A stretch of 64,000 nucleotides of DNA, taken from assembly GCA_021738065.1 (NCBI GenBank), contig JAIPCT010000006.1:1-64000 (forward strand), read 5' to 3'. The DNA comes from Burkholderiaceae bacterium (GTDB lineage Bacteria > Pseudomonadota > Gammaproteobacteria > Burkholderiales > Rhodocyclaceae). Shown in pieces: positions 54,793-58,590 of this stretch. The notes beneath the pieces are model-generated. The model was not told where the DNA came from and made no database searches. It worked only from the letters and a program-made list of their open reading frames with translations. A program made the translations under genes and the position numbers. Every line of letters starts with the position of its first letter. The stretch's first letter is position 1.

Positions 54793-54822
54793 TGTCATTC
54801 CGGCGAAAGCCGGAATCCAGTG
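54793..54822. repeat. REP-like palindromic unit
   Basis: TCATTCCGGCGAAAGCCGGAATCCAGTGAA. Confidence 0.65.
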
Positions 54823-54838
54823 AATCGTTGATTGTGTT

Positions 54839-55147
54839 GCCGTATCGCCAGCGCCAGCGCTTTGCGTCCCTTCGGGAACTTTTCAGGCCGTGCCCTTAAC
54901 TTATATGCCGGGACTCGCCCCGGCGGGCGAGGTACTTTCTTGCTGCGCGGCAAGAAAGTACCCAAAGAAACGCGCCCCGCCTCCCCGGCCCTGCGGGCTC
55001 CCCTCGCTGCGAAAGGCCCGCCGGGCCGGTCGCTAAACTAGCCGGCCAAAAAAGCCGGCCGTCGTCGGACAACGCGACCGGACTTCCCCCGGCGAACCTT
55101 CCTCGCTCGGCGGGTCAGAGGGGATTGAAAACCGCCGTGCGTGATGG
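54839..55147. repeat. Left arm of long inverted repeat flanking the cassette array
   Basis: Reverse-complement matches 57995..58299 at high identity; contains internal hairpin GTACTTTCTTGC-TGCGCG-GCAAGAAAGTAC. Confidence 0.92.
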
Positions 55148-55200
55148 AGCGTGCCGCAAACAAAAAGCGAAGCCGACCCTTTTTCGCCTCATTGATAGCC

Positions 55201-55266
55201 TCTAAACGTGGAAGTAACCGGCCTGCGCGGCTGTTCGCGCAGGTCCTGTTGACTGCCGGGTTGGGG
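55201..55266 (-). other. attC-like recombination site (degenerate)
   Basis: Minus strand CCCCAACCCGGCAGTCAACAGGACCTGCGCGAACAGCCGCGCAGGCCGGTTACTTCCACGTTTAGA; downstream of lipoprotein ORF. Confidence 0.65.
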
Positions 55267-55290
55267 GCACTGTTCGTCGTCACTTGCTTG

Positions 55291-56100
55291 TTAGCTTGCG
55301 CTAACCAATTCAGAACAGACTTCCATCTTGTTTGTAATCTCTTTGAAAAGCACATCACCTTTTTCAGCGCGAGTCTTGATCTGGTCGTGCGGTATATCAG
55401 CAAACCCTTGAAGTGATTTGTTTGATGCTGCTAATTTGTTAGCTTCGTCAGTAGTCGAGCTACTAGCGGTTTGCTTTTCATTCTTTTTCACAAGCGCAGA
55501 CTGTAGTTTGTCAAGGTTCGGGGCTACAAGCGTGACGCTTGACTGCGCCGTATCAAGACGCGCGTGAATAATCTTGAACGTTCTGTATGTCAAGTCTCCG
55601 ATCGTTCTTTCACTCTTGCTTCCAATAAGACTTTCATAAGTGACCAACGCGACTTCATCGTCAGTATTGATCTTTCGGAGTTCGTCAAATACACACACAG
55701 ACGCCTTCTCAGCTTTTCCAAAATTTGCAGCTTGTACGGCAAGTTGATAGCGACCAGGTGCAATTTCAGCGCCGGCAGAAAATGCACCGCCAGCTACAAC
55801 AGCTTCAGGCGACTTGGCTGCACCTCCAAGCATTGCAAAAATTGCTCCGAATAGGCTTGCGTCGCTGTGGTTGTAAACCCGTTTTTGAATAGCATCCTTT
55901 TGTGTTCGATAGAACTCGCCGTAAGTCCATGCGTACTTTATCGATTCAGGTACACCTGAAGGAACCGGAATGGCGGTCGCCGCCGTGTCCTTATATTTGT
56001 TGTAGTCCTCCAAGCTAGGCTTTGAGATGGGAAGAGGATGGTAAGTGGAGCAACCCATCATCATTACTGTTATAGCGACCACATTGAATAGCTTTGACAT
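55291..56100 (-). CDS. Putative lipoprotein (cassette gene)
   Basis: MSKLFNVVAITVMMMGCSTYHPLPISK lipobox; low-GC relative to backbone. Confidence 0.8.
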   Translation of the reverse strand: MSKLFNVVAITVMMMGCSTYHPLPISKPSLEDYNKYKDTAATAIPVPSGVPESIKYAWTYGEFYRTQKDAIQKRVYNHSDASLFGAIFAMLGGAAKSPEAVVAGGAFSAGAEIAPGRYQLAVQAANFGKAEKASVCVFDELRKINTDDEVALVTYESLIGSKSERTIGDLTYRTFKIIHARLDTAQSSVTLVAPNLDKLQSALVKKNEKQTASSSTTDEANKLAASNKSLQGFADIPHDQIKTRAEKGDVLFKEITNKMEVCSELVSAS

Positions 56101-56154
56101 TTTCTCCTCCTCGCTTCAACGTTTTAACGTAACAGCTGAAATTTTTGCCACGAC

Positions 56155-56222
56155 CCCCAACGTTTGAGTTCACCGGCCTTGCGCGGCTTTATGCGCAAGG
56201 CCGGTGGAATGATGGGTTGGGC
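56155..56222 (-). other. attC recombination site
   Basis: Minus strand GCCCAACCCATCATTCCACCGGCCTTGCGCATAAAGCCGCGCAAGGCCGGTGAACTCAAACGTTGGGG; immediately after the stop codon of the DUF4145 gene. Confidence 0.88.
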
Positions 56223-56918
56223 CTATGTTGCACGGCGAGACTCCCTTCGCTCCTTAGCTAGGCGTAGGCGCTCTGGCTCCGTGTACATTCGCTCCAGCAG
56301 CGCAAAGGTGAAGTCGAGAAGATCTTCCGCATCTTCCTTTCCGAGCGTTCCGTCATGAGCGCCATCGTTTCCGTCTTCTTTGATGCACGACGAAAGCTCT
56401 TGTAATGCAGTTGGCAACAGACCTTGCTCGAACAGCCATGGCAATCGAAGGCCAAGGTTACGGCGGATTTTCGAATTTAGGCCGTTAGCGTCAGCTTCGG
56501 GAAGTAGTGATTTGGTAGCGAGATCAACACACAGTCGGAACATCGTACCCGCCGCATTGAAGCAGCCCACAGCCAAACAGGTTGCACCTTCAGAGAACAC
56601 AGAAAGGATTTCTGGAGGGAGGTGTTCGGGCGGAGAGATAGCTTTTGCATCCTTAAGGCTTACGTAGTTCTCTACGGTAACTAACTTGTTGGCAGCGACC
56701 GGTAGCTTGTTAAGCCCGGACTGACGAATGGCTTTGGATTCATCTATCCCTTTTTCGCTTAGAAGAAAGACTGTCGAGCGACTACAGTGGCGGCAAATGC
56801 AGAATGCCTCGTACCAAGACTGCCAGTTGTGCCTGTAACCGACCTGCGTGTGGGCAACCAGATCGAATGTCATTCGACTCGAACCACAACGAGGACAATC
56901 GGCAACTAGCTCTGACAT
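56223..56918 (-). CDS. DUF4145-like protein with N-terminal zinc-ribbon-like motif (cassette gene)
   Basis: VADCPRCGSSRMTF...FCICRHCSRSTVF; LPPEILSVFSEGATCLAVGCFNAAGTMFRLCVDLATKSLLPE. Confidence 0.8.
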   Translation of the reverse strand: MSELVADCPRCGSSRMTFDLVAHTQVGYRHNWQSWYEAFCICRHCSRSTVFLLSEKGIDESKAIRQSGLNKLPVAANKLVTVENYVSLKDAKAISPPEHLPPEILSVFSEGATCLAVGCFNAAGTMFRLCVDLATKSLLPEADANGLNSKIRRNLGLRLPWLFEQGLLPTALQELSSCIKEDGNDGAHDGTLGKEDAEDLLDFTFALLERMYTEPERLRLAKERRESRRAT

Positions 56919-56961
56919 TTCATTTCTCCTGCTTCAATGCGTAGACAAGTCATAACGAAAG

Positions 56962-57031
56962 GCCCAACGTCTGAGTTCAGGGGCGCTGCGCGGCTTTATC
57001 GCGCAGCGTCCCCTGGAACGATGGGTTGGGC
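56962..57031 (-). other. attC recombination site
   Basis: Minus strand GCCCAACCCATCGTTCCAGGGGACGCTGCGCGATAAAGCCGCGCAGCGCCCCTGAACTCAGACGTTGGGC; canonical RYYYAAC...GTTRRRY ends. Confidence 0.92.
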
Positions 57032-57134
57032 GCTGATTTACGCCAGAAGACAGCAGTACAACGTAGCGCAAAAGTCGGCTCTGGTAGGGCAGCGACAGCA
57101 AGGCACGAGTGGTTAACGTCATGAGTCGCCAAGT

Positions 57135-57347
57135 TCACTCAGGCGGTTTTTGCTTTCGCGAGCGTAGAAACGCCACGAGCATGATGATCGCTCCCAACAA
57201 AAAGGCTGGCGAGAAGAACATCCATGCGAACGGCACAGCCAGACAAATTTGCGTCGGATAGACAGCACAAACTCCAAAACCAAGAACGGTGATCGCTATT
57301 GGAGAAAGAAAGATGAGTAAGCCTACGGTTTGAAGAGGATTTTTCAT
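57135..57347 (-). CDS. Small two-TM membrane protein (cassette gene)
   Basis: MKNPLQTVGLLIFLSPIAITVLGFGVCAVYPTQICLAVPFAWMFFSPAFLLGAIIMLVAFLRSRKQKPPE. Confidence 0.65.
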   Translation of the reverse strand: MKNPLQTVGLLIFLSPIAITVLGFGVCAVYPTQICLAVPFAWMFFSPAFLLGAIIMLVAFLRSRKQKPPE

Positions 57348-57393
57348 CAGAATTGATGTGCCCGACGTAAATTGAAGGTCGACTCGAAGTTAC

Positions 57394-57747
57394 TCATCTT
57401 TTGCTGTCTATGTCACTTTCGGGCGACTTTGCGCGTTGAATCAGCAATTGACAGTCTGATATCGGCAGTGAGCCTTTTTTGTTGAACAGTGCGCGAATCA
57501 TATTTTCAATATCTTTGAAATCGGCCCGACTCTCTGCCGCATCAATATGCTTTTGATTACGTTGCTTCCATAGCGAAAACGATGCGTCTATCTCAGCTTG
57601 CATGGATGGTTGGTCTGCTTTGCATTTTTCAACGTGGACTATTGCAAAGACTACTGCGGCAGCTCGATCACTTTCAATCATTGCCTTGCTAGGTGTTGCA
57701 GTCACGCCTAAAAATATTGCTATGAAAAGAACAGTAACGTTTTTCAA
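57394..57747 (-). CDS. Small secreted protein with signal peptide (cassette gene)
   Basis: TTG start: (M)KNVTVLFIAIFLGVTATPSKAMIESDRAAAVVFAIVHVEKCKADQPSMQAEIDASF. Confidence 0.6.
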   Translation of the reverse strand: MKNVTVLFIAIFLGVTATPSKAMIESDRAAAVVFAIVHVEKCKADQPSMQAEIDASFSLWKQRNQKHIDAAESRADFKDIENMIRALFNKKGSLPISDCQLLIQRAKSPESDIDSKR

Positions 57748-57768
57748 TTTGATAGCCTCGCCAAATAG

Positions 57769-57821
57769 GCCCAACGTTAAATATGGCTCCTAATTGACGG
57801 GATGCATTCCGTCATTTAGGC
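57769..57821 (-). other. Degenerate attC-like site
   Basis: Minus strand GCCTAAATGACGGAATGCATCCCGTCAATTAGGAGCCATATTTAACGTTGGGC; 3' TTAACGTTGGGC typical, 5' core weak. Confidence 0.6.
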
Positions 57822-57976
57822 CGGATATAAAGTCGTACATTTTGACAATTCTCCAAATGTTCAAACTGTTGACGAATTTTAGTGGGGCCTAAAACGTCGG
57901 TAATCCCGTCATTGCTGGAACCAGAGTCGGGGTCACGTTCGGCTACCCGAAATGGATTAGACGATTTATCCGGCAT
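57812..57976 (-). CDS. Small hypothetical cassette ORF whose stop overlaps the attC-like site
   Basis: MPDKSSNPFRVAERDPDSGSSNDGITDVLGPTKIRQQFEHLENCQNVRLYIRPK. Confidence 0.35.
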   Translation of the reverse strand: MPDKSSNPFRVAERDPDSGSSNDGITDVLGPTKIRQQFEHLENCQNVRLYIRPK

Positions 57977-57994
57977 TTCCACAAGGGGCAATCC

Positions 57995-58299
57995 CTCACG
58001 TGCGACGCTTTTCACTCCCCTCTGACCCGCCGAGCGAGGAAGGTTCGCCGGGGGCAGTCCGGTCGCGTTGTCCGACGACGGCCGGGTTTTGGCCGGCTAG
58101 TTTAGCGGCCGGCCCGGCGGGCCTTTCGCAGCGAGGGGAGCCCGCAGGGCCGGGGCGGCGGGGCGCGTTTCTTTGGGTACTTTCTTGCCGCGCAGCAAGA
58201 AAGTATCTCGCCTGCCGGGGCGAGTCCCGGCTTGTGGGTTAAGGGCACGGCCTGAAAAGTCCCCGAAGGGAAGCTAAGCGCTGGCGCTGGCGATACGGC
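57995..58299. repeat. Right arm of long inverted repeat flanking the cassette array
   Basis: Reverse complement of 54839..55147. Confidence 0.92.
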
Positions 58300-58318
58300 A
58301 ATGGACTGAAGGAAGCAC

Positions 58319-58590
58319 TGGATTCCGGCGTTGCCACCCCGCGCAGCGGAATCAAAGGCATGCAGAGCCGTCGGAATGACAGAACCTCAAAACTCGGCGC
58401 TGGTGATACGGCGATGCGATCAACGATGCACTGGATTACGGCGTTGCCACCCCGCGCAGCCGAATCCAAGGCATGCAACGTCGCCGGAACGACGGCACGT
58501 CAAAAAGTCGGCGTTGGCGACACGGCGAAGGCGCGGCCATGCGGCACGTCAAAAACTCGGCGTTGGCGACACGGCGCCCAAGCCGCCATC
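58319..58590. repeat. Tandem/nested REP-like and KVGAGDTA-type repeats upstream of metG
   Basis: CTGGATTCCGGCGTTGCCACCCCGCGCAGC at 58319 repeated at 58431; AAACTCGGCG(C/T)TGG(T/C)GA(T/C)ACGGCG at about 58388, 58502, 58551. Confidence 0.85.

Follow-up and report, generated by a model that had tools for sequence, protein, structure and literature searches.

A three-cassette array with an attI site and an integrase-gene relic in a Rhodocyclales genus, probably a decayed sedentary chromosomal integron

The window (the whole stretch of DNA analysed, 64,000 nucleotides) contains an array of three gene cassettes, A to C, with all ORFs on the minus strand. Cassette A holds two ORFs. The first (57394-57747) encodes a predicted secreted protein of ~117 amino acids with a signal-peptide-like stretch, MKNVTVLFIAIFLGVTATPSKA, and its start is presumed to be the TTG at 57747; the second (57135-57347) encodes a small hydrophobic protein of 70 amino acids, for which no family was found above cut-off. 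The ORF of cassette B (56223-56918) encodes a 231-aa DUF4145 protein (PF13643, 33.3 bits against a cut-off of 23.1). That of cassette C (55291-56100) encodes a predicted 269-aa lipoprotein with a lipobox-like MMGCS; no family above cut-off was found for it, and one plasmid homologue was 30% identical. GC content was 0.49 for the array and 0.44-0.52 for the cassette genes against 0.61 for the window, in agreement with the initial annotation, which had described the cassettes as lower in GC than the backbone. No match to a sigma-70 promoter was found for the array. Among 60 relatives, the lipoprotein and the secreted protein were each found in none (0/60) and the DUF4145 gene in one (1/60), where it adjoins an attC. 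These three genes are therefore not core genes, and the counter-reading raised in the initial annotation, fixed core genes in related genomes, does not apply.

attC sites were scored with a covariance model trained on eight attCs from other genomes, with the sequence of the window excluded. Three sites were recovered, all on the minus strand: the attC of cassette A at 56962-57031 (98.2 bits, E 7e-24), that of cassette B at 56155-56222 (71.9 bits, E 9e-17) and that of cassette C, the last in the array, at 55201-55266 (50.4 bits, E 5e-11). The best remaining independent match in the window scored 11.4 bits. The first two had been proposed as near-canonical attCs and both score strongly, so that the failure of the model at 56155 and 56962, named beforehand as evidence against the reading, was not seen. 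The third had been called degenerate; it is an attC, with a diverged R' (GTTTAGA), and its score is convincing. The DUF4145 stop codon abuts the attC core as described (TAG-GCCCAAC). Single-strand folds of the three sites were far more stable than those of shuffled sequences (z = -6.85, -7.65 and -3.60 for the attCs of A, B and C, respectively). In an alignment that contained the two best attCs of the window, 8 of 24 stem pairs were changed on both sides, against a mean of 3.3 in shuffled alignments, with one of 500 shuffles reaching 8; this signal was gone once the pairing partners were slid.

As a positive control, the model recovered, at 73.9 bits, the attC that follows OXA-2 in a class 1 integron on a plasmid; the attC arms of OXA-2-type cassettes of class 1 integrons are 86-87% alike to those of the array. 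A strict R''/R' pattern run over the metagenome-assembled genome (MAG) retrieved only the best attC, and a search of Rfam gave no matching family and chance-level matches only. attCs of the same type were also seen on large plasmids of Ideonella dechloratans (L059, 51 bits) and Cupriavidus oxalaticus (L056, 59 bits), adjoining hypothetical genes. A 1983-bp circular 'plasmid' of Marinobacter sp. M3C (L058, NZ_CP092287.1) bears a single clear attC (61 bits) along with genes for a toxin-antitoxin pair, a further antitoxin and a cupin. Its annotation lists no replication gene; it could be one or more excised circular cassettes instead of a plasmid.

A fourth site, 57769-57821, had been proposed as a degenerate attC. 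This candidate was rejected, because the attC model gives no match there and the sequence aligns as an attI. The attI lies at 57766-57815 on the minus strand (core GTTGGGC at 57769-57775) and was aligned with the attI beside intact intI in relatives; the core ACGTTGGGC is kept and one of two small hairpins is lost. Region 57766-57990 is collinear with attI, leader and intI start in 13 related genomes (12 of the same genus and one of the same family; blastn, best E 1e-9), and the best E among 200 shuffled queries was 0.05. In 14 related genomes a LexA-box-like CTGTATA-N6/7-CAG stands upstream of intI. In the multiple alignment the corresponding position in the window, 57821-57836 on the plus strand, reads CCGGATATAAAGTCGT, the decayed box of the former intI promoter.

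The initial annotation had reported that no intI was visible. A relic of it is present on the plus strand at about 57894-57990 by DNA alignment, blastn and tblastn. The ATG of congeners reads ACG here, 58 nt are missing at ~57940 and the codons end after RFIRHF. The relic is short (about 97 nt). It is also the place of the best match of IntI proteins in the window (tblastn, E 0.003); the claim of a relic is made because of the collinear DNA alignment, since the evidence at protein level would by itself be weak.

The bases from 57992 on, directly after the relic, belong to a repeat that was absent from the initial annotation. Two inverted copies of ~340 bp bracket the array, 54806-55148 and 57992-58332, at 91-92% identity. 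The left copy is on the plus strand and runs to 55183, and the right one, joined to the intI relic, is on the minus strand. The repeat contains GGTACTTTCTTGC...GCAAGAAAGTACC. Further copies, long and fragmentary, were found in the same MAG on contigs C108, C4 and C3, so that it is called a dispersed repeat here and is not taken to demonstrate a transposable unit. Compared with the left and C108 copies, the right copy lacks ~35 nt at its inner end, which points to a scar of deletion or recombination at the joint with intI. The array is located on contig C85, between A2M and metG, and both joints with this backbone run through the repeats. The address of the array could therefore be a misassembly. 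In six relatives no metG was seen over the ~6 kb upstream of A2M. The region was therefore rearranged here or, less likely, misassembled.

The host MAG has 3.4 Mb in 148 contigs and a completeness of 87.6%. No IntI above the TIGR02249 cut-off was found in it, and IntI was found above the curated cut-off in 23 of 30 congeners. IntI-profile matches on contigs C35 and C127 of the MAG fell below cut-off and were set aside, presumably as XerC/XerD-type recombinases. Over the MAG the attC model gave 25 matches; these fall at 24 places spread over ten contigs, and several are at contig ends. About twenty of these places lie outside the array (contigs C48, C61, C62, C106, C142, C35, C56, C146 and C127; loci L147-L154 and L031). 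Where they fall at contig ends, the assembly was probably interrupted by larger cassette arrays. Given the incomplete MAG and the attC arrays at contig ends, an intI of this genome may be absent from the assembly; the many attC places, together with the IntI of congeners, mean that the genus carries many cassettes. attCs near-identical to those of the array are present in two congeners, G030 and G018. G030 is taken to be the Rhodocyclales MAG NC_groundwater_1815, as the positions of its IntI and DUF4145 genes agree with those in G002/L036. In it, contig C26 carries an integron with homologous attI, leader and intI start and a near-identical attC type; unlike in the window, its intI is intact, adjoining the attI, and its cassettes are different. 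Elsewhere in G030 (contig C41, locus L036, 773-855) a site resembling attI stands upstream of a DUF4145 cassette; it shares 78% identity with the attI linked to intI in that genome. No IntI match was found in that locus, and it is perhaps a second integrase-less platform in the genus.

Cassette B was compared with its homologues. It is 93.6% identical in DNA over 812 bp, and its protein 99% identical in amino acids, to Azotobacter beijerinckii DSM 378, a gammaproteobacterium. The homology is bounded on both sides by ACGTT, exactly at the GTT crossover points of integrons; such base-exact limits are the prediction of transfer as a cassette. The protein has an N-terminal part resembling a zinc ribbon (C8, C11, C42, C45) and a HEPN-like C-terminal domain, and all four cysteines and H188 are kept in all 17 homologues. 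The cysteines presumably form a zinc ribbon. DUF4145 belongs to the HEPN superfamily, members of which are often linked to conflict and defence (PMC3710099). The Rx4-6H active-site motif of HEPN RNases is absent: K180, seven residues from H188, replaces the expected R in cassette B and in 17/17 homologues. Judged by sequence, the protein would be classed only as a DUF4145 protein and not as an active HEPN RNase.

The PADLOC model of PD-T7-4, an anti-phage system found experimentally (PMC9519451), matches the cassette B protein weakly (30 bits, E 7.8e-8) and, again weakly, 11 of the 17 homologues. An AlphaFold model of the protein was confident (pLDDT 86.7). A fold search of the PDB with this model returned nothing below E 0.001 and hence no confident match; a viral fold library gave one unnamed match, and no solved structure was matched by sequence.

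Gene neighbourhoods of DUF4145 were surveyed at 21 genomic loci. At seven of them (L035, L036, L039, L044, L045, L047 and L052) the attC model puts a site no more than about 50 bp from the gene; it does so weakly at L055, and a simpler pattern gives such a site at L042. Such attC neighbours of DUF4145 genes recur in both Beta- and Gammaproteobacteria, and probably also in Verrucomicrobiota and Omnitrophota. The P2-like Escherichia phage Cartapus has a homologue (L159, 162-860; 47% identity) between cos and the portal gene, an interval that fits an accessory gene. A passage of PMC12444791 cites work in which many integron cassettes are reported to be anti-phage genes. Because of the tie to HEPN, the weak PD-T7-4 match, the recurrent attC neighbours and the Cartapus homologue, the DUF4145 protein is a plausible, if weak, candidate for phage defence. 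More broadly, the zinc-ribbon DUF4145 gene is tentatively proposed as a recurrent, widely mobile cassette with an undescribed single-gene function in phage defence, a possibility held at rather less than even chances.

The core of the initial annotation holds: this is an array of integron cassettes that lacks a working integrase, on a contig of apparently chromosomal type. The locus is very probably a sedentary chromosomal integron, in a Rhodocyclales genus, that decayed and no longer has its integrase. A software annotation would label it a CALIN. In IntegronFinder 2.0 (PMC9024848) a CALIN has at least two clustered attCs and no integron integrase nearby; here three attCs were found, with no functional IntI nearby. 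Unlike a CALIN, the locus keeps attI and the intI relic, which show that it began as a complete local integron. The layout of a complete integron is still seen, with attI beside the plus-strand intI relic and all cassettes on the minus strand, leading away; the intact intI of a complete integron is lacking, its start codon being lost, 58 nt deleted and the gene truncated. With attI and relic still attached, the locus is therefore an integron that decayed locally, as opposed to a cluster of orphan cassettes.

An ancestral IntI encoded on the plus strand would have inserted circular cassettes at attI, its gene probably regulated by SOS through the LexA box. The resulting minus-strand order would be attI, A (secreted and small membrane protein), attC, B (DUF4145), attC, C (lipoprotein), attC. 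The intI gene would afterwards have decayed, through changes in its start codon and LexA box and an internal deletion, and would then have been truncated at the dispersed repeat, freezing the array. Past activity at the locus and this order of events are inferred. An IntI from elsewhere may still be able to recombine the remaining attCs in trans, and a functional intI may be present elsewhere in the cell, the MAG being incomplete and fragmented.

Three other accounts were weighed. A trans-acting IntI could have placed the cassettes at an attG-like chromosomal site where no integrase gene ever stood. attCs are indeed spread over many loci in the MAG and in congeners, and Xanthomonas commonly carries CALINs distant from its intI locus (PMC12444791). 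The array, however, begins at an attI with the intI leader and a relic, which is unexpected for an orphan CALIN, and this account is very unlikely.

The flanking repeats bear on the other two. They may have moved the integron as a unit, in the manner of MITE-bracketed mobilisation units, and may thereby have removed most of intI. The 91-92% inverted repeats that directly flank the array speak for this, as do A2M and metG, which are not close neighbours in relatives. Against it, the repeat is found singly and fragmented elsewhere in the MAG, the right copy itself lacks part of its inner end, and neither a transposase nor a target duplication nor clean ends could be seen. Such a move is unlikely; it is compatible with a decayed integron, and both can hold. 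The same repeats on both sides, in a fragmented MAG and a region of non-conserved synteny, could also have led to the mis-joining of an integron fragment of the same genome at this position. The copies differ by ~9%, however, and are hence distinguishable, and attI, relic and attC type all fit the same genus; an error would at most affect where the element lies, not what it is. Mis-joining is considered quite improbable. The reading as a decayed sedentary integron is retained.

The initial annotation had named the array as its best candidate for novelty. It is not a strong one, as broken intI with retained cassettes is already well documented: about one third of intI genes are broken (PMC2426708), and most Xanthomonas strains have a broken intI (PMC12444791). 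As in those sedentary chromosomal integrons, the integrase has decayed and the cassettes are retained; unlike in them, only about the first 50 intI codons can be traced, the remainder being lost at the dispersed repeat. Since broken intI genes are common, the locus belongs to an already known kind and has met an ordinary fate.

The element itself is thus ordinary. It gives a clear snapshot of the death of an integron platform, in which attI and the cassettes last and the probably SOS-controlled integrase erodes, and one of its cassettes, B, is shared between bacterial classes with limits exact to the base. The genus, which has both intact and broken platforms, would be a good subject for work on integron loss.
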